DNA from: Rhodocyclus gracilis
GTDB lineage: Bacteria > Pseudomonadota > Gammaproteobacteria > Burkholderiales > Rhodocyclaceae
Assembly: GCF_009617575.1 (NCBI RefSeq)
Contig: NZ_WIXJ01000012.1
Location: 1 to 64,000 of the forward strand
Length of the DNA stretch: 64,000 nt
Direction of reading: 5' to 3'
The translations under genes and the position numbers were made by a program. Positions 1 through 58,523 of this stretch are shown here, in pieces. Position 1 is the stretch's first letter. Each line of letters begins with the position of its first letter. Below the pieces are notes generated by a model. That model saw only the letters and a program-made list of their open reading frames with translations, did not search any database and was not told the origin of the DNA.

Positions 1-138
1 AAAAAAGCCCGTTTATCAACCACCCAACCGGAGGCCGTTCTCCAGGAATAAGTGGTCCGAAGAATTCAGGCAGGTCACAGCCCCCAACACCAAGGCTGCA
101 TACCCCTCCAAAAAACGCCGACAACGGAAGTCGCGTAA

Positions 139-456
139 ATGGACGCGAATATGAAAAAGCAGCAAGGCAAGGTCGGTATCGGATTTTTCATCTTCATTGG
201 GTGCTTTCAATTTGTTATAGTTTTCTGCGCTAAATACGCAGTAAATGTTCCTGACGCTGTTTTAGGATATAGCGCGCTCATCGCATTCTTGTCCTTTTCT
301 ATCATAAACATTGTTGGAGACACTTCTGTTGTGGTTGGTACGCGTCAAGATAAAACGAACCAGTTGCTCGAACAGCTACTTGAAGAGAAAAAGCGGGAAA
401 ACGCCATGAAATCGCGCCGTCGTCGCCCGACGCAAAAGAACGAAGATGTGGCGTAG
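139..456 (+). CDS. Small two-helix membrane protein of unknown function
   Basis: I do not recognise this 105-residue protein. It has two hydrophobic stretches, about residues 13-34 and 40-60, then a charged tail with coiled-coil character (QLLEQLLEEKKRE) ending in a run of basic residues. The start ATG has a GGAAG-type ribosome site about nine bases upstream; a second in-frame ATG lies four codons on. It sits in the phage-like element and converges on the replication-like operon, with a strong terminator between them. Size and topology would fit a holin or other small phage membrane protein, but that is only a guess. Confidence 0.55.
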   Translation: MDANMKKQQGKVGIGFFIFIGCFQFVIVFCAKYAVNVPDAVLGYSALIAFLSFSIINIVGDTSVVVGTRQDKTNQLLEQLLEEKKRENAMKSRRRRPTQKNEDVA

Positions 457-490
457 AAACGGAAAAGACAGGATTGGCGATAGCAATAAA

Positions 491-523
491 AAAAACGCCG
501 CTGGGTCATCCAGCGGCGTTTTT
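491..523. terminator. Bidirectional intrinsic terminator
   Basis: A perfect 14-bp inverted repeat (491-504 and 510-523) with the five-base loop GTCAT. The stem core is CGCCGCTGG and it is flanked by A and T runs on the two sides, so it can stop transcription both ways. It lies exactly between the convergent genes at 139-456 and 529-1356. Confidence 0.85.
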
Positions 524-528
524 GCCCG

Positions 529-1356
529 CTACGTAGCCATCGGCCAATTGCCGGTTTTGGGGTGCGGACCGAGAACGGTTGCGCCGTCGCGTACGGCTGA
601 CGGGTCAAGCCGGGGGCGTTGACTTCGCGCGTCTATCAGACGCGACATTGATGCCTTTCTGCGCTTTTTTGCCGCCGCGTCGGTTAGCGCGGTGGCTAGC
701 TCCGACGGGTATCGGCAGGATTCCACGGCGCGAGCCGCCTCATCGTCAGCCAGATTCAGTTTTTCGGCGAGCGCGCGCGCTTCGGCGAGCGCTGCATTGT
801 CGCGATGTCGATCTGCATTTGCGGTTCCCGATGCAAGCTCAAGCACCCGCGACAACTCAGCGCCAAATAGAGTAGAGCAGCGGAATGCTGACGCAGCCGC
901 GTCGTCAGCTACTCTTTTATTTTCCTTTTCTTTTGTTTCTTTTTGTTTCTTTTGCTTTGTCTTGCAAGCATATGATTCGTCAACAAAAGCGGCGGCCTTT
1001 TTGACGAGACGAGTCAATCGCAGCGATCTTATCCTCGCGATTGACCTGCGCAACATGCTCTGCCGCATCGCCGAATCGAACTTGTGCCAGCGATACCAAT
1101 CGCATATAAACACTTCTCCAGTTTCGTCGTCAAATGCAATCAATTCGCGCTTCTCGAATTCTTTGATTGCGTCTGCAACTGCGATTGCGCTGAGGTTTGT
1201 TTCCGCTGCGACGGCGTCGAGCGGCAGCAGCCACGCCCCGCAATCCTCGGCGGCGGTCGCCCATAAATGATAGATCAGTAACTTGTAATCGGGCACAAGC
1301 GAGCGGATCCGGGGGCCGCTCATCAGATTCGAGGGGATGAGGCGTGCGCTAGCCAT
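529..1356 (-). CDS. Phage replication-like protein
   Basis: 275 residues. The N-terminal ~95 residues (from MASARLIPSN) look like the winged-helix domain of phage replication or replisome-organiser proteins: a WATAAEDCGAW-type segment, then a helix-turn-helix-like stretch and CDWYRWHKF. The middle is very lysine-rich (KTKQKKQKETKEKE) and the C-terminus is alanine-rich and basic, as in O-like initiators. The start was chosen at the ATG that overlaps the end of the upstream gene by eight bases, which implies translational coupling; the frame stays open further upstream but that part is antisense-like and arginine-rich. Replication initiation is an inference from the fold pattern and from its place in an early operon. 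Confidence 0.6.
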   Translation of the reverse strand: MASARLIPSNLMSGPRIRSLVPDYKLLIYHLWATAAEDCGAWLLPLDAVAAETNLSAIAVADAIKEFEKRELIAFDDETGEVFICDWYRWHKFDSAMRQSMLRRSIARIRSLRLTRLVKKAAAFVDESYACKTKQKKQKETKEKENKRVADDAAASAFRCSTLFGAELSRVLELASGTANADRHRDNAALAEARALAEKLNLADDEAARAVESCRYPSELATALTDAAAKKRRKASMSRLIDARSQRPRLDPSAVRDGATVLGPHPKTGNWPMAT

Positions 1357-46533: not shown

Positions 46534-48450
46534 ATGGCCCTCGTCAAGAAAGCAGGCACTCCCGCCCCCACTGGCAGCAGCGAAGGGCGCAATGCCCACG
46601 CAGCGGCACGCGATGCGGAGGCACAACGCAAGCGCGCACGCACCCTCGCCAAGCAGCAGCAGGCCGCCGAACGGATTGCCGCCGCCACCGCGCAACTGGC
46701 TTCCGGGATCAACGAGGCGGCTTCCGCCGCCGAGGAACTCAAGCGTGCCGCCGACCAGATCGCCACCGGTGCTGAAGAAGCGTCGGGCGCCGCTCAGGAA
46801 TCGCTGGCGGCCTTCAAGCAGGTCACAACCGCCATCGGCCGGCAGCTGCAAAGCGCCGAAGTCGGCAAGACCAAGGCCGAGACGACACAGGCACTCATTG
46901 TCAGCATCGGCAGCGATGTCGGTACGCTGGTCGGCAACGTCGGCGTCGCCGCACAACGCCAGAAGAATTCCGTCGAGATGGTCGGCGAACTGGAAAAGCA
47001 GGCGGCCAACATCGGCGATATCGTCAAAGCGGTGGCGCGCATCGCCGACCAGACCAATCTGCTGGCGCTGAATGCCGCCATCGAAGCGGCCCGCGCCGGC
47101 AAGCACGGCAAGGGCTTTGCCGTCGTTGCCGACGAAGTGCGAACGCTGGCCGAAACCTCCGAAAAAAGCGCGAAGCAGATTCAGGATCTGGTCGGACAAA
47201 TCCAGCAGGAAGTGAAAGTCATCGCCGACGGCATCGGCGCCTCCGCCACCGCCGTGCAAAGCGAAGTGGAAAATGGCAAGACCATCAACGTCCAGCTCGA
47301 ACAGATTCGTCTCGACACCAGCGAAATCGTCAAAAGCACCATCGAAATCGCCGCCGGCGCGCAGCAATCGGTCGTCGCCGCGCAGCAGGCACTGAAAGGC
47401 TCGGAAGACATCGCCGCCGCCGCCGAGGAACAATCCGCCGCCGCCGAAGAATCGGCGAAAACGGTCGAGGAGCAAAGCCAGGCGCTCGGCCAATGTGAGC
47501 AGGCCGCACAAAGCCTGTCGGAGCTGGCCGAGGATCTGAAAAACTCGACCGACGTCGCCAAGAGCGCCGAGGAAGTCGCCTCCGCCGCCGAAGAGCTGTC
47601 GTCGGCGGTTCAGGAGATCAACCGCTCCGGCGCGCAGATCATGGCCGCCATCGAGCAGATCCGGAAAGGCGCCGAAGTGCAGGCGGCGGGATCGGAGGAA
47701 TCGGCGGCTGCCATCGTACAAATCCAGCGTGGCGTCGATCTGGCCCGCCAGCGGGCGCAAGACAGCGCCACACGGATCGAGGCCATTCGTGGCTTGCTGG
47801 GCAACAACAAGACTGCCGTCGACAATCTGGTCGCCGGCATTCTCGCCTCGGTCGACGCCTCGCGCGACAGCCTGCGGCAGATCAAGGCGCTCGAACTGGT
47901 ATCACGGCGCATCGACAAGATCGTCGATGCGATCACCACGGTATCGATCCAGACCAACATGCTCGCTGTGAACGGCTCGATTGAAGCGGCCCGCGCCGGC
48001 GAGTTCGGCAAAGGCTTTGTCGTTGTCGCCACCGACATTCGCAACCTCGCCCACGACTCGGCCGAAAACGCCGACCGCATCAAGGATCTGGTCAAGGCGG
48101 TACAGGACCAGATCGGTACCGTCGGCCGCGATCTCGACGAAATCATGAATGCCGCCAGCCGTGAAGTCGAAACGGCGAAGACCGTTACCGCAGGGCTTGT
48201 CACCATCGAAAACGACATTGCCGTCGTCGACTCCGGCGCCCGCGAGATCCTCACCGCCTCTGAGGAAATCGCCGCTGCCGTTACGCAGGTGAAGACCGGT
48301 ATCGAGCAGATCTCCGCCGCCGCCCAGGAAGCCGACAAAGCGGCCACCGAAGCCTCGGCCGCCGCCAAGCAGCAATCGCAGGGCGCCGAGGAACTGGCCG
48401 CCGCCATCGAAGAAATCGCATCGCTGGCCGACGAACTGCAAAGCGCCTGA
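46534..48450 (+). CDS. Soluble chemoreceptor with two signalling tips (DosM-like)
   Basis: 638 residues, almost entirely alanine/glutamate-rich helix, with no membrane segment or recognisable sensor domain. It contains two separate receptor hairpin tips, residues 170-189 ([20 protein letters not shown]) and 470-489 ([20 protein letters not shown]), each followed by the GKGF-VVA segment. The tips are exactly 300 residues apart, so each hairpin has arms of about 150 residues. Tip 2 is more divergent ([16 protein letters not shown]) than tip 1. Such a layout is that of DosM, the double-signalling-domain receptor of Vibrio cholerae that bridges the two CheA/CheW layers of a cytoplasmic array. First gene of the operon; methylation sites are plausible in repeated EE/QQ segments. 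Confidence 0.88.
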
Positions 48451-50165: not shown

Positions 50166-51248
50166 ATGATCAAGCTGCTCATCGTTGACGATTCCGCGCT
50201 GATGCGCCGCCAGTTGAACACCCTGTTCAGCGCCGAAGGCGATTTCGAGATTCGCCTTGCCCGCAACGGGCGCGAAGCGCTCGACGAGAACCTCAATTTC
50301 CAGCCGGATGTCATCACCCTCGACATCAACATGCCCGAGATGGATGGCCTCACCGCGCTATCGCTGCTCATGGCGCAGCGAGCGGCGCCGGTTGTCATGG
50401 TCTCCTCGCTGACCGACAAGGGCGCGCTCGCCACCTTTGAGGCGCTCAACCTCGGCGCTGTCGACTACGTTGCCAAACCCGGCGGCACCATCTCGCTGTC
50501 GATCAAGGAGATCAGCGACCTGCTGATCGGCAAGGTGCGCGCCGCCGCGCGGGCACGCCTCAAAAATGCGCGCCCGGCGAGCCTCGCCCACCGCTTGCGC
50601 GAGGAACGCACACGCGCCACCGCCCGCCCCCTGCCGCGTAGCTTTGCCGGCGGTGACGGTCTGGTGCTGATCGGCGTGTCGACCGGCGGGCCACGCACGC
50701 TGGAAGACATCCTGCCGCTGCTGCCGGCCGAATTCCCGTGGCCGATCATCGTCGCCCAACACATGCCGGCGAGTTTCACCCGCCCCTTCGCCGAGCGGCT
50801 CGACGGGATGTGCGCGTTGCGCGTCGTCGAGGCCGCCAAGCCGATGCCGGTCGAGCCCGGCGTCGTCTACATCGGCAAGGGCGGCGCCGACGTCGCCCTC
50901 AGCCGCCGCGCCGGCCGCCTGACGCTGCTGGCCAAGCCGGAAGATGGCCGCTTCCTCTGGCACCCCTCGGTCGAACTGCTCGGCCGCACGGCGCTGGAGC
51001 ACGTCGAACCAGCCCAACTGATCGGCGTCATGCTGACCGGCATGGGCAACGATGGCGCCGAGGCCTTTACCGACATCCGCCGCCGCGGCGGACGCACGAT
51101 TGCCGAATCGGAAGAGTCGTCCGTGGTCTTCGGCATGCCGGCAGAACTCATCGCCCGCAAGGGCGCGAGCATGGTTCTGCCTTCCGACAAAATTGCTGTC
51201 CAGCTCTCCGCGTGGGCAGGAAGGGAACGGAGCGAACCATGCCTCTGA
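50166..51248 (+). CDS. cheB: Chemotaxis methylesterase/deamidase CheB
   Basis: 360 residues, typical CheB. Receiver domain with phospho-acceptor Asp53 (TLDINMPEMDG) and C-terminal esterase with the triad Ser172 (GVSTGGP), His199 (AQHMPASF) and Asp296 (GMGNDGA), aligning with Salmonella S164/H190/D286. It removes methyl groups from receptor glutamates after phosphorylation by CheA. A 114-base gap separates it from the CheW gene; its end overlaps the HEAT-like gene by 10 bases. Confidence 0.97.
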   Translation: MIKLLIVDDSALMRRQLNTLFSAEGDFEIRLARNGREALDENLNFQPDVITLDINMPEMDGLTALSLLMAQRAAPVVMVSSLTDKGALATFEALNLGAVDYVAKPGGTISLSIKEISDLLIGKVRAAARARLKNARPASLAHRLREERTRATARPLPRSFAGGDGLVLIGVSTGGPRTLEDILPLLPAEFPWPIIVAQHMPASFTRPFAERLDGMCALRVVEAAKPMPVEPGVVYIGKGGADVALSRRAGRLTLLAKPEDGRFLWHPSVELLGRTALEHVEPAQLIGVMLTGMGNDGAEAFTDIRRRGGRTIAESEESSVVFGMPAELIARKGASMVLPSDKIAVQLSAWAGRERSEPCL

Positions 51249-51877
51249 TCAAGCCGGGGCAAACGCCCCCCTCCGATGAGGAAAAGCGGCGCTGGCCACG
51301 CGATGCCGACGGTCTGCTACGCGCACTCGACGACAGCACCCCCAGCGCCCGCCGTTGCAGCGCCCGCGACATGGCGAACGCCGAGAACGATGCTCAGCGC
51401 GCCTTGTTCGCTGCCGCACTGCTGGCAAGACTGAGAAGCGAGCACGAAGTCTCGGTGCGCGAAGTGATGCTGACCACGCTGGTGCGCTTGGGCGACATTG
51501 CCGCGCTCTCCGGCCTCGCCGACTGTCTGCGCACCGACGACACGACACTGCGCAACGAGGTGATCGAAGCGATGCGCGAAGCGCCGGCGGAAACGGCGCC
51601 GATCATCCTCGAACTCCTCGGCGATGCAGAGCCGAGCCTGCGCGTCTTCGCCGTCAATATTCTTGAATCCTTTCGCCACCCGGACGTCGAACACTGGCTG
51701 ATCGACCTTATCTCGCACGAGGCGAACGTCAACGTGTGTGCCAGCGCGGTCGACGTCCTCTGTCTCACCGGCAGCACGGCCTCGCGTCCGGCCCTTCTGG
51801 CGCTGCGGCAACGCTTTCCGGAAGAACCCTTCCTCCAGTTTGCCATCGACCTGGCCCTCAAACGCACAGCGGACTGA
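51239..51877 (+). CDS. HEAT-repeat-like protein in chemosensory operon
   Basis: 212 residues, entirely helical. About five HEAT-like units are visible from residue ~30 to 205, with repeats of the type REVMLTTLVRLGDIAALSGLADCL, RNEVIEAMREAPAETAPIILELLGD, LRVFAVNILESFRHPDVEHWLIDLI. HEAT proteins are scaffolds that bind other proteins. Position between cheB and cheR suggests it recruits or organises the methylation enzymes or array. It has no catalytic motif. I recall a comparably placed protein in V. cholerae chemotaxis cluster I, which should be checked. Confidence 0.75.
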   Translation: MPLIKPGQTPPSDEEKRRWPRDADGLLRALDDSTPSARRCSARDMANAENDAQRALFAAALLARLRSEHEVSVREVMLTTLVRLGDIAALSGLADCLRTDDTTLRNEVIEAMREAPAETAPIILELLGDAEPSLRVFAVNILESFRHPDVEHWLIDLISHEANVNVCASAVDVLCLTGSTASRPALLALRQRFPEEPFLQFAIDLALKRTAD

Positions 51878-51887
51878 GCACAAGGCC

Positions 51888-52730
51888 ATGGCCGATATCA
51901 GCATCAGCGAACAGGACTTCGAGAAGTTTCGGGAGTTCTTCTATCGCAAAAGCGGTATCCAGTTTGATGACTCGAAGCGCTATTTCGTCGACAAGCGGCT
52001 GATCGAACGCATCGAAGCGACCCAGTCAGGGTCTTTTCGCAACTACTTCATGCTCTTGCGCGTCCAGGCATCGAATGCGGAGTTGCAGACGCTGACCAAT
52101 CTGATGACGGTCAACGAAACGTATTTCTTCCGTGAGGAATACCAGTTCGACAGCCTCGTCAATTCGATCCTGCCCGAGATCGTCCGCCTCAAGCAGGACC
52201 AGAAACCGATCCGCATCTGGGTCATCCCCTCCTCCTCCGGAGAAGAAGCCTATTCGATCGCCATCAAGCTGCTCGAGTGCTGGCCTGCGATCAACGAAGT
52301 CGATGTCGAAATCATCTCCTCGGACATCGATACGCACATCCTCGGACAGGCAAGGCAAGGGCTGTACTCGGCGCGCTCGGTCGCGCAGATGCCGACCCGC
52401 TATCTGCAGCAGTATTTCCGCCGCGTCGGACAGAACTGGCAGATTTGCGACGCCTTGCGCGACGCCGTGGAGTTCACGCGCGTCAATCTGTCCGACCCGT
52501 CCGACACACGAGCCTATCGCGGCTTCGACGTGGTGTTCTGCCGCAACCTGCTCATCTACTTCGACGACATCTCGCGCAAAGCCGCCGCCGAAACCTTCTA
52601 CGACGCGCTCAACCCCGGCGGCTTCATCTGCCTGGGCCATTCCGAGTCGATGAGTCGCATGTCCTCACTGTTTCGCGTGCGCAAGTTTCCCGACGCGATC
52701 GTCTACCAAAAACCGCTGGAGGCCCGATGA
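51888..52730 (+). CDS. cheR: Chemotaxis protein methyltransferase CheR
   Basis: 280 residues. The N-terminal helical domain (SISEQDFEKFREFFYRKSGIQF) precedes the SAM-dependent methyltransferase domain with TNLMTVNETYFFRE, PSSSGEEAYSIAI (SAM site, usual 'CSTGEEPYS' written as PSSSGEEAYS) and DVVFCRNLLIYFD. Methylates receptor glutamates. Lacks the C-terminal NWETF-binding extension clues, so tether use is unknown. Followed by an ATGA-coupled receiver. Confidence 0.95.
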   Translation: MADISISEQDFEKFREFFYRKSGIQFDDSKRYFVDKRLIERIEATQSGSFRNYFMLLRVQASNAELQTLTNLMTVNETYFFREEYQFDSLVNSILPEIVRLKQDQKPIRIWVIPSSSGEEAYSIAIKLLECWPAINEVDVEIISSDIDTHILGQARQGLYSARSVAQMPTRYLQQYFRRVGQNWQICDALRDAVEFTRVNLSDPSDTRAYRGFDVVFCRNLLIYFDDISRKAAAETFYDALNPGGFICLGHSESMSRMSSLFRVRKFPDAIVYQKPLEAR

Positions 52731-55792: not shown

Positions 55793-56080
55793 ATGGCACT
55801 CCAGTTCGTGGATTCCTGCGCGCACTTCGTCGACACGGTAGGGGTCGAAGAAGCGGAAGTGCTGCTCGATTGGTTGCAAAAAACTCCGGATGCCGTCATC
55901 GATTTCGGCCCGTGCACGCACGTGCACCCGGCCAACCTGCAGGTACTGATGGCGGCGAACGCCAGCGTCCGTGCCTGGCCCGCCGAGACGCGCCTCGCTG
56001 ACTGGCTGCGCCCCCTCTTCCCGACACCGGAACCAACAGTAGCACCGGCGCCGAAGCGCAAACGGCGCAAAGCCGCCTGA
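55793..56080 (+). CDS. STAS-like small protein in chemosensory operon
   Basis: 95 residues. The core VIDFGPCTHVHPANLQVLMAA looks like the conserved loop of STAS (anti-sigma-antagonist-like) domains, where a Ser/Thr is often phosphorylated; here it is Cys/Thr (CTHVHPA). The C-terminus is Pro/Arg/Lys-rich. It lies immediately after cheA and before a CheY gene, in the place where CheX, CheD or CheZ-like genes occur in other clusters. STAS assignment is by pattern only; a function in tuning CheA or binding CheY is inferred. Confidence 0.6.
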   Translation: MALQFVDSCAHFVDTVGVEEAEVLLDWLQKTPDAVIDFGPCTHVHPANLQVLMAANASVRAWPAETRLADWLRPLFPTPEPTVAPAPKRKRRKAA

Positions 56081-56493: not shown

Positions 56494-57771
56494 ATGCGTG
56501 CCGACGAAGAGCGGATTGCCCCCTCGTACAGCGTGCGCCGACTGGCAACGGCGGTCGTCCTCGCCGCGCTGTCAGCCGTCGCACTGGCGTGGTTCCTCAC
56601 CCCTTGGGGGCAGGACGCCGGCCTTGGCAACCGTGGCGCCAGCGCCTTGAGCGCGCTGCTCGCCACCCTCGTCGGCATCCTCCTCTGCGTTCTCATCGCC
56701 CGCAGGCGTTTGGGCGACAACTCACAGGCGCCGGACACGACGCGGGCCCCGCACGCCCAGCCCACCACCTCATCCAACCGGGCACGCCGCGAAGCCGTCG
56801 AGAACGAGCTCAATTCGGTATCGCCCTACCTCGCGGTGATCTGCCAGCAACTCGGCGGCAGCGTCAGCGAGACCGAGCACAGCGTCGCCGAAGTCGTCGA
56901 CAACATCGGCGCCGTGCACCGCCTGAGCAACGCGCTGGTGACGCGCAGCGTAAATGTGTCTCAGGCCGCGCGCGACGCCATCGACGCGGCCGCCAGCACG
57001 CAGGCCGATTTCAGCCGCGAAGTGCTCGGCTCGCTCAACGATCAGGTAGCCAGCCGACAGGAACAGCTGGCGAGCAATCTCGAACGCGTCCGCCGGCTGG
57101 CGAACGAAGTCAGCTCACTGGTACCGCTGGTCGACAGCGTCTCCGCCATCGCCAAGCAGACCAGCCTGCTCGCCCTCAACGCCAGCATCGAGGCAGCGCG
57201 CGCCGGCGAAGCGGGGCGCGGCTTCGCTGTCGTGGCCGACGAGGTGCGCAATCTCTCGGCCCAGACGAGCCAGGTCGCCGCCAACATCAACGACAAGATC
57301 AGCGCCGCAGTGCAAAGTGCCGAAGAAGAACTGGCTCGCGCGCGTGACAACATCGAGCACGACCACCTCACGCAGGGGCTGTCGAAGATGATCACCGAAA
57401 ACAGCACGATGGAAAGCCGCTTCGCCGACATCGGCGACAATTTTTCCGGCTTCCTCGGCGAAGTCGAGAGCAGCAGCCGCGAGATTGTCGAGCGCCTGTC
57501 GGGCGTGCTGGGCAGCGTCCAGTTCCAGGACGTCGTCCGGCAGCGCATCGAACAGGTGCAGCACTCCCTGCAGGAACTCGACGCCCACCTGCACGAACTC
57601 GCCGACAAGCTCGGCGATGCCAGCTGGAACGGCACGCTGGCGACGCCCCTCGCCCGACGCATGGAGCAGCATCTCGATCGCTACGTGATGGCCAGTCAGC
57701 GCGACGCGCATGCCACCGTGACCGGCGGCGTGGCGACGAGCGACGACGGGCCAAAGATCCAGCTGTTCTGA
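56494..57771 (+). CDS. Membrane-anchored methyl-accepting chemotaxis protein
   Basis: 425 residues. Two closely spaced N-terminal membrane helices (about 15-34 and 50-70) with almost no periplasmic loop, then a cytoplasmic helical region and one receptor tip, [20 protein letters not shown] at residues 219-238. No HAMP or periplasmic sensor is visible. The C-terminal segment VLGSVQFQDVVRQRIEQV is a conserved tail of a small MCP subgroup. Being membrane-bound it may anchor or dock the otherwise cytoplasmic array, or sense redox or membrane state. Followed by ParA with a one-base overlap (TGATG). Confidence 0.9.
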   Translation: MRADEERIAPSYSVRRLATAVVLAALSAVALAWFLTPWGQDAGLGNRGASALSALLATLVGILLCVLIARRRLGDNSQAPDTTRAPHAQPTTSSNRARREAVENELNSVSPYLAVICQQLGGSVSETEHSVAEVVDNIGAVHRLSNALVTRSVNVSQAARDAIDAAASTQADFSREVLGSLNDQVASRQEQLASNLERVRRLANEVSSLVPLVDSVSAIAKQTSLLALNASIEAARAGEAGRGFAVVADEVRNLSAQTSQVAANINDKISAAVQSAEEELARARDNIEHDHLTQGLSKMITENSTMESRFADIGDNFSGFLGEVESSSREIVERLSGVLGSVQFQDVVRQRIEQVQHSLQELDAHLHELADKLGDASWNGTLATPLARRMEQHLDRYVMASQRDAHATVTGGVATSDDGPKIQLF

Positions 57772-58523
57772 TGGCACGCATTCTCGCCATCAGTAACCGC
57801 AAGGGCGGTGCCGGAAAAACGACGACCGCGGTGAACGTTGCCGCCGAAATTGCCGCACGCGGCGAACGCGTCGTGCTGATCGATCTGGATTCCCAGGGGC
57901 ACTGCGCGCTGGGCTTCGGCATCAAGGTCGAGCGCGACGCTCCCTCGGCGCATGGCCTCTTCACCGGTGCCAACACACTGCGTCAGGCACTGCGACCGAC
58001 GCGGTGGCCACAGCTGTCGCTGATCCCCGCCGACAGCCGCTTCGAGCATGGCGGCGCCGACACCGGGCTATTGCAGCGCGCACTCGCCGCCGAGGGCTTT
58101 CTCGACGAAGCGCTGACGCTGATCCTCGACACGCCGCCCTCGCTCGACGCACTGCTGCTCAATGCGCTGACGGCAGCGGATCGCGTGCTGACGCCCTTCG
58201 TACCCCACCCGCTCGCCGGAGAGGGCGTACGCGCGCTGGCGCGCATTCTCTTTCGCGTCGCGGCGGATCGCAGTAATGCGGGACTGCGCGTACTCGGTTT
58301 CCTGCCGGTGATGGTGGACACGCGGATCGGCCAGCACCGCAGCGTCAGCGACAGCATCGCCCAGCAGTTCGGAGCCTCGCGCATGCTTCCCGGCATCCGC
58401 AGCGACATCAAGCTGGCCGAGGCCTTCGCGGCGGGGCAGCCGATACGTGACTACGCCCCGCATAGCCGCGGCGCCGACGACTATCGCGCGGCGACCGACG
58501 CTATCCTCGAGCGCTGGAACTGA
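57771..58523 (+). CDS. ParA-family ATPase, array-positioning type
   Basis: 250 residues. Deviant Walker A KGGAGKTTTA at residues 11-20, Walker A' in VVLIDLDSQGHCALGFG, Walker B LILDTPPSLD. No N-terminal helix-turn-helix and no parB beside it, so not a chromosome or plasmid partition pair. Similar orphan ParA proteins (PpfA in Rhodobacter sphaeroides, ParC in Vibrio) segregate or place chemosensory arrays. Last gene of the operon, consistent with positioning of the array by interaction with one of its receptors. Confidence 0.88.
   Translation: MARILAISNRKGGAGKTTTAVNVAAEIAARGERVVLIDLDSQGHCALGFGIKVERDAPSAHGLFTGANTLRQALRPTRWPQLSLIPADSRFEHGGADTGLLQRALAAEGFLDEALTLILDTPPSLDALLLNALTAADRVLTPFVPHPLAGEGVRALARILFRVAADRSNAGLRVLGFLPVMVDTRIGQHRSVSDSIAQQFGASRMLPGIRSDIKLAEAFAAGQPIRDYAPHSRGADDYRAATDAILERWN

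Follow-up and report, generated by a model that had tools for sequence, protein, structure and literature searches.

The 64,000 nucleotide stretch of Rhodocyclus gracilis DNA analysed here (contig NZ_WIXJ01000012.1 of assembly GCF_009617575.1, hereafter the window) contains, at 46534-48450 on the forward strand, an open reading frame (ORF) for a 638 amino acid protein that consists of two chemoreceptor hairpins in tandem. We conclude, with a probability of about 0.82, that this protein is the DosM of a complete F9 chemosensory array system. The protein matched MCPsignal, the signalling domain of methyl-accepting chemotaxis proteins (MCPs), in two stretches with a whole-protein E-value of 5.5e-66 (Pfam), and a separate genome scan placed the two PF00015 stretches at 46960-47415 and 47866-48318 of the contig, there labelled C3, with 119.1 and 107.0 bits, both above the curated cut-off of 34.6 bits. 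No sensor domain was present among the Pfam matches of the protein, and no membrane segment was obtained by the Kyte-Doolittle method, the highest 19-residue mean being 1.5 against a threshold of 1.6. It has been described that the mark of F9 systems is a DosM with double signalling domains together with CheW3, a concatenated triple CheW, and that 98% of DosM homologs have only two signalling domains and lack sensory domains (PMC9321776). In the window, a three-domain CheW is encoded next to the double receptor, and the same cluster encodes CheA, CheB, CheR and CheY, which completes the F9 gene set. Since two signalling domains, the absence of a sensor or membrane part, the adjacent three-domain CheW and the full gene set make up the published signature of the class, the identity as a DosM-like protein, proposed in a first-pass annotation made from the sequence alone, is strongly supported. 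The domain search which that annotation had suggested as a check thus returned both signalling domains.

The conserved tip glutamates are residues 184 and 484, which lie 300 residues apart and were invariant in a first alignment of 11 sequences. In the larger alignment, this tip-to-tip spacing of 300 was found in 120 of 120 rows, including the window (115 distinct sequences, as five pairs of rows are identical), with identities to the window protein down to 35%; 17 of these loci had been picked by a filter that required the second tip 300 +/- 1 residues on, and all 17 passed. Gaps or insertions within residues 32 to 636 are confined to seven of the 120 rows. Five of these are truncated or later-start ORFs; the remaining two are the most diverged of the set, and in one of them the gaps are offset by insertions. 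The arms are equal within a few residues, as the conserved N-terminal helix starts at about residue 28, the midpoint between the tips falls at about 335 and the C terminus is at 638. Next to this midpoint, residues N337, S338, T339 and D340 form the strongest five-residue loop-former window of the family (116 sequences), and the predicted structure shows a helix break at 338-340. Therefore, one soluble protein with two tips 300 residues apart, equal arms and neither membrane nor sensor part, as first read from the letters, is borne out by ORF, Pfam, hydropathy and spacing. Chance or a misread ORF as the source of the double tip is ruled out by the ORF itself, the Pfam matches, the genome scan and the spacing in the 120 rows.

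The rows were obtained as follows. The best 80 of 551 confirmed DosM relatives were used, and 73 of these loci gave rows after exclusion of 11 partial or broken ORFs (from L062, L085, L087, L089, L114, L116 and L127). Locus L042 was not used, since it represents a second cut of the genome already sampled by L040, and the repeat loci L137, L140 and L158 and the repeat G_L034 are likewise absent from the 120-row set. For coevolution, for the tests on residues 299 and 375 and for the tip comparisons, six gappy, truncated or most diverged rows were dropped, leaving 114; seven rows were dropped for the sister-pair test and four for the loop-former scan.

Among the best-80 loci long enough to show each gene, downstream relatives on the same strand were found for CheW3 in 72 of 74, CheB in 69 of 70, the HEAT-repeat protein in 63 of 65, CheR and the response regulator in 61 of 62 each, and CheA in all 62. 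One of the two misses of CheW3 (L120) is an early-opening ORF, and all 70 neighbouring CheW ORFs of at least 440 amino acids, the length used for this count, contain three CheW domains. A CheY follows in 54 of 62 loci and a short MCP in 45 of 61. The gene order in the locus listing is dosM-cheW3-cheB-HEAT-cheR-response regulator-cheA, and an exception is a plasmid cluster of Agrobacterium vitis with no annotated HEAT gene and no annotated regulator ahead of cheA. A very similar arrangement is that of the F9 cluster of Methylotuvimicrobium buryatense 5G (L052), which encodes a DosM of 639 amino acids and shares this order up to cheA and, beyond it, a cheY and the short MCP that we name McpZ. 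The DosM copy in genome G309, taken to be the same genome as that of strain 5G, is 76% identical to the DosM of the window. No ParA match was obtained within the stretch of the 5G cluster that was examined, and otherwise no difference was noticed.

With respect to Vibrio cholerae, the protein resembles DosM (VC1403) of cluster I/F9 in its tandem signalling domains, the absence of a sensor and the triple CheW neighbour (PMC7534058, PMC9321776), and the cluster resembles that of V. cholerae in encoding CheA, CheB, CheR and two CheYs (PMC11940527). The organisms are different, and the likeness is one to the published description rather than to sequence or tip spacing. In V. cholerae, DosM has been reported to be rod-shaped and extended, to carry one signalling domain at either end, to join two CheA/CheW layers and to occur in every other trimer; the base plates consist of CheA and the concatenated triple CheW (PMC7534058). 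Two base plates around soluble receptors have also been described for the cytoplasmic cluster of Rhodobacter sphaeroides and for Escherichia coli Tar fragments in vitro (PMC3964821). There, the receptors are taken to contribute one hairpin each and the two sheets to meet mid-way, whereas the R. gracilis DosM has both hairpins in one chain. By analogy, DosM, CheW3 and CheA of the same cluster would most likely form a purely cytoplasmic array with two CheA/CheW base plates and the receptors between them; for the two-layer array and the scaffold role of DosM, V. cholerae serves as the model. The bridging role that the first-pass annotation had suggested would thus follow from the V. cholerae system, whereas the DosM-type architecture on which it was based was found here.

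The tips were compared over a 53-residue window. Tip 1 is canonical: when set against the tips found at 27 other MCP loci in the same genome, one of which (L018) was placed out of register, it averages 66% identity, compared to 48% for tip 2. Within the family (114 sequences), mean pairwise identity is 92% for tip 1 and 85% for tip 2, while the two tips of the same protein share 51%. A first tip of type 1 and a second tip of type 2 are kept in 114 of 114 proteins. Tip 2 is therefore more diverged, as had been noted from the sequence, when measured against other receptors, but inside the family it is itself conserved, and for this reason it looks specialised rather than decaying. Its residues E484 and R487 are kept in all 114 sequences and N480 in 107, and these presumably correspond to E385, R388 and N381 of Tsr, residues that we take to make the trimer contacts. 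Because they are kept, tip 2 looks able to join trimers. These values also bear on the view that DosM arose by plain tandem duplication and carries its second hairpin along without array function. The departure of tip 2 from canonical tips would be in keeping with this view; against it stand the 85% identity of tip 2, the near-invariance of E484, R487 and N480 and the spacing of 300 that does not vary in 120 rows, and we regard it as very improbable.

Two monomer models were predicted with AlphaFold2 (AF2) from 11 and 60 sequences, with mean predicted local distance difference test scores (pLDDT) of 91.1 and 92.4, respectively, and a predicted template modelling score (pTM) of 0.66 for both. 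The helices of the model span residues 18 to 637, and therefore both chain ends also reach the centre. When the second model was compared with solved structures in VIA, 297 residues within 20..590 aligned to the Tsr chain 8c5v (root mean square deviation 3.3) and 303 residues within 18..591 to 3zx6 (3.8); in the first model, 297 residues within 113..568 aligned to a compact bundle. VIA rows give the first and last aligned residue only, so that the fold was read from aligned ranges and not from coordinates. A single hairpin alone also aligns to solved receptors, as seen with 2ch7 for residues 336..638 of the first model and 311..613 of the second. The top VIA rows included TTYH channels and ClyA-like pore formers, which we read as a reflection of compact four-helix packing and not as kinship. 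From these ranges, both monomer models appear to be folded back; the Tsr alignments of the second model are explained most simply if the first helix of hairpin 1 runs alongside the last helix of hairpin 2. Both tips would then lie on the same side, an arrangement which the first-pass annotation had set against bridging. Bridging is not thereby refuted, because a monomer model does not separate a folded-back chain from antiparallel rods: the same helices meet between chains in an antiparallel extended dimer, and the prediction fits both alike.

Taken at face value, the models would correspond to a single-chain pseudo-dimer, which folds back at residues 337-340 into one four-helix bundle that is about 22 nm long and has its two tips at the same end. 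Opposing layers would then meet tail to tail, and DosM would not bridge them covalently. Apart from the folded-back look of both monomers, such a shape would agree with the position of the loop-former window at N337 to D340 and, equally well, with the coevolution registers given below; furthermore, opposed single-hairpin Tar fragments also form two-layer arrays, about 31 nm apart (PMC3964821). On the other hand, the tomography of V. cholerae was described as showing DosM extended into a rod, its signalling domains at opposite ends (PMC7534058), and predictions of a monomer favour close contacts inside the chain. We consider this shape unlikely.

As a look independent of AF2, coevolution was followed between the four helices, named N1, C1, N2 and C2, with a nine-class residue alphabet. 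By the register of Tsr that we assumed, contacts within hairpins were expected near i+j = 378 for hairpin 1 and 978 for hairpin 2. Should the two hairpins pack on each other, contacts of C1 with N2 and of N1 with C2 would presumably fall near i+j = 678, and those of N1 with N2 and of C1 with C2 near j-i = 300. In a run with 94 sequences, most blocks were unclear; near the expected register, p at the widest cut-off was 0.022 for the hairpin-1 control and 0.026 for C1-N2, and the control for hairpin 2 did not fall below 0.23. With 114 sequences and a narrower search window, p-values at three cut-offs were 0.004, 0.001 and 0.001 for the control N1-C1 and 0.761, 0.142 and 0.010 for the control N2-C2. 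Between hairpins, they were 0.124, 0.012 and 0.106 for C1-N2, 0.026, 0.052 and 0.028 for N1-C2, 0.400, 0.048 and 0.132 for N1-N2, and 0.377, 0.360 and 0.218 for C1-C2. For the best register anywhere (p_max), values of 0.498, 0.051 and 0.311 were obtained for C1-N2 and of 0.116, 0.045 and 0.110 for N1-C2. In a mean-score profile, z ranged from 1.6 to 2.7 at the expected registers of the 372/972/672 set, compared to 0.6 to 1.4 at four control registers. In the sister-pair test, for which 56 path-disjoint pairs were found and near-identical ones then excluded, co-change peaked near the expected registers, with p from 0.023 to 0.445 between hairpins and from 0.015 to 0.310 for the hairpin controls.

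The top pair of the first coevolution run was formed by residues 299 and 375, whose sum is 674. It is a recurrent swap of E and Q: among the 120 rows, EQ occurs in 96, QE in 10, EE in six, QQ in four and other combinations in four. When both columns were left out of the tree, 12 independent row pairs that differ at 299 were obtained; on average, residue 375 changed in the opposite sense in 7.4 of them, in the same sense in 0.0 and stayed unchanged in 4.6 (median p 0.016, range 0.008-0.070). Control position 599 changes 13 times, with an opposite change in only 2.3 of 11, while position 75, with only two changes, serves poorly as a control. Altogether, these results are suggestive, at about two to one, of hairpin 1 packing on hairpin 2.

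The parallel extended homodimer, in which like tips pair, the two ends differ and each may have its own CheA/CheW partners, has to be weighed against these data. Canonical MCPs are parallel homodimers, which counts in its favour. Homodimers are also described in PMC11940527; in addition, the two tips differ at many conserved positions with both types kept in 114 of 114 proteins, and further CheA/CheW sets are present elsewhere in this genome. Such a dimer, however, predicts no coupling between hairpins 1 and 2 at i+j of about 678, yet the pair 299-375 sums to 674; the cluster itself contains a single gene each for CheA and CheW3, and both AF2 models disagree. We find it improbable, to the same degree as the single-chain fold.

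Our preference, held tentatively and at slightly under even odds, is for an antiparallel dimer of extended rods, since it fits both AF2 and coevolution and since the V. cholerae tomography favours extended rods. Hairpin 1 would pack against hairpin 2 and not against itself, and each end of the extended form would carry one tip 1 and one tip 2, a reading of the packing to which we give the same guarded weight of not quite one half. Both base plates would then meet the same surface and see the same tip mixture, so ends with different partners become less likely. The suggestion of the first-pass annotation that the two ends prefer different CheA/CheW partners is thereby weakened, as AF2 and the weak coevolution signal would place tip 1 beside tip 2, although other CheA/CheW sets do exist in the genome. 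If the antiparallel arrangement is true, both faces of the array would be chemically identical, and the tip difference would mark two roles within one receptor pair. A literature search gave nothing on the orientation of the DosM dimer; the original DosM paper, which that search did not cover, may state one.

Several points weigh against this picture. Contacts that belong to a dimer tend to be placed within one chain when a monomer is predicted, and the folded-back shape was itself read from alignment ranges. The expected registers were shifted by 6, from 372/972/672 to 378/978/678, on the Tsr numbering that we took as given; the p-values of the blocks between hairpins span 0.012 to 0.40 depending on block and cut-off, and register controls without an expected contact reach a p_max down to 0.042. 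The pair 299-375 was selected after the fact, and both residues may be methylation sites, in which case charge balance could couple them without contact. An array in R. gracilis is predicted from the genes, whereas that of V. cholerae has been described by tomography. Finally, there is the length. At a helix rise of 0.15 nm per residue, 300 residues as a straight rod would measure about 45 nm, which is longer than the gap of 35 nm between the base plates of V. cholerae. This gap is reported in PMC7534058 and PMC3964821, and for Aer2-like (36H) receptors the boundary of signalling domain and HAMP was placed 17.5 nm above the base plate (PMC7184735); therefore, two hairpins as long as the present ones, placed end to end, would exceed 35 nm. 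In V. cholerae, Mlp14 of cluster I is listed as class 44H (PMC11940527), and we infer from gene order that Mlp14 is DosM.

As DosM lacks a sensor, the signal must come from another receptor and would enter through mixed trimers. For V. cholerae, the soluble two-PAS receptors VC1406 and VCA0864 have been named as possible partners of DosM (PMC7534058). In the R. gracilis genome, locus L013 (contig C23, ORF 475-2001) encodes a PAS-PAS-MCP protein. Among the 27 other MCP loci examined, it is the only one for which no membrane segment was predicted, and this soluble protein is a candidate partner receptor for DosM.

The positions of the features described here are given in Table 1. The 95 amino acid protein matches STAS_2 with an E-value of 0.013, below the cut-off, and small hypothetical genes occupy the same position after cheA in annotated F9 clusters on plasmids. 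ParA relatives were also seen in a number of F9 loci. The ParA-like ATPase encoded by the last gene could possibly position the array.

Table 1. Features of the DosM gene and of the F9 cluster in the R. gracilis window
Feature	Position	Strand	Basis or remark
DosM homolog, 638 aa	46534..48450	+	tandem receptor hairpins x2, soluble, without sensor domain
DosM tip 1, residues 161-213, canonical receptor tip	47014..47172	+	alignment and tip-window comparison
DosM central N-S-T-D, residues 337-340, between hairpins	47542..47553	+	loop-former window and AF2 helix break
DosM tip 2, residues 461-513, divergent but family-conserved, MLAVNG replacing LLALNA	47914..48072	+	alignment and tip-window comparison
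CheW3, concatenated triple CheW, 528 aa	48465..50051	+	three PF01584 stretches
CheB, response regulator and methylesterase	50166..51248	+	start by inspection
HEAT-repeat protein, 212 aa, between cheB and cheR	51239..51877	+	start by inspection
CheR methyltransferase	51888..52730	+	start by inspection
CheY-like response regulator 1, 123 aa	52727..53098	+	start by inspection
CheA, 898 aa	53095..55791	+	Hpt, H-kinase_dim, HATPase_c and CheW domains
Small protein, 95 aa, between cheA and second cheY	55793..56080	+	weakly STAS_2-like
CheY-like response regulator 2, 124 aa	56106..56480	+	cluster gene listing
McpZ, short membrane MCP, named in this analysis	56494..57771	+	CheZ-like FQDxxRQ motif; C-terminal tail of I-(E/Q)-L-F type
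ParA-like ATPase, last cluster gene	57771..58523	+	Pfam, locus listing

McpZ has two predicted membrane segments and a receptor tip, and about 115 residues past the tip it contains the sequence FQDVVRQ. It has been described that DXXXQ is the phosphatase motif of CheZ and adjoins a conserved AXXFQ (PMC7750401), and FQDLTGQ was found in 13 CheZ ORFs of relatives. In an alignment of the window protein with 39 of 53 McpZ ORFs (A4; a second alignment, A5, has 20 rows), D346 and Q350 do not vary in any of the 40 members; the motif QxxDxxxQ is present in 50 of the 53 ORFs and an ELF ending in 46. Homology to CheZ was considered and not accepted: McpZ scored 21.4 bits with the Pfam CheZ profile, whose cut-off is 30.7 bits, only three of 40 family members matched at E<=0.01, and a profile comparison with 13 of 16 CheZ loci put the FQDxxxQ motifs in register with a P of only 0.025, compared to about 0.1 for two DosM controls. 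From the motif, we predict that McpZ is possibly a receptor-like CheY phosphatase, in which case the F9 system would gain a signal-termination step. No report of an MCP with a CheZ motif was found in a literature search. On the Azospirillum plasmids L164 and L165, an annotated regulator and a CheC lie directly upstream of dosM, and on the A. vitis plasmid L166 a regulator and a CheX follow the cluster, with no short MCP annotated within that stretch, the only one in which this absence was seen. Since CheC or CheX stand at these F9 clusters, it looks as if different CheY phosphatases serve the same role across them.

Of 61 genomes in the family to which R. gracilis belongs, 3 contained a DosM homolog, as did 9 of 369 in its class and 9 of 398 in its phylum. 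In searches around other genomes, homologs were present in 4 of 394 genomes in the order of G685, in 3 of 318 in the class of G449, in 18 of 151 in the family of G309 and in 5 of 147 in the family of G408. In these counts, E-value limits vary between searches, each search includes its own centre genome, and some genomes were covered by several searches. Among the best 80 of the 551 relatives, carriers are mainly Pseudomonadota, and a few others are labelled as acidobacteria (L055, L083, L099), an actinomycete (L122), a Desulfovibrio (L054) and a spirochaete (L127). None of these 80 loci came from a Vibrio. Matches at E<=1e-60 were obtained in 21 plasmid records, of which seven regions were read. 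In a published survey of 2781 species, full F9 clusters were reported for 64 and partial clusters for eight, and horizontal transfers were numerous (PMC9321776). The F9 DosM system is thus of a known kind and its distribution is sporadic; its function is described as unknown in PMC7184735.

As a gene, the DosM of R. gracilis is one more F9 DosM, and its use is comparative. What is new here is the constant 300-residue spacing, the conserved difference between the tips and a hint on how the tips pair. In 120 rows, most of them from Pseudomonadota and a few from other phyla, the tip-to-tip length does not change and the tips stay different. With a constant length and distinct tips, the seating of DosM in a two-layer array becomes a testable question.

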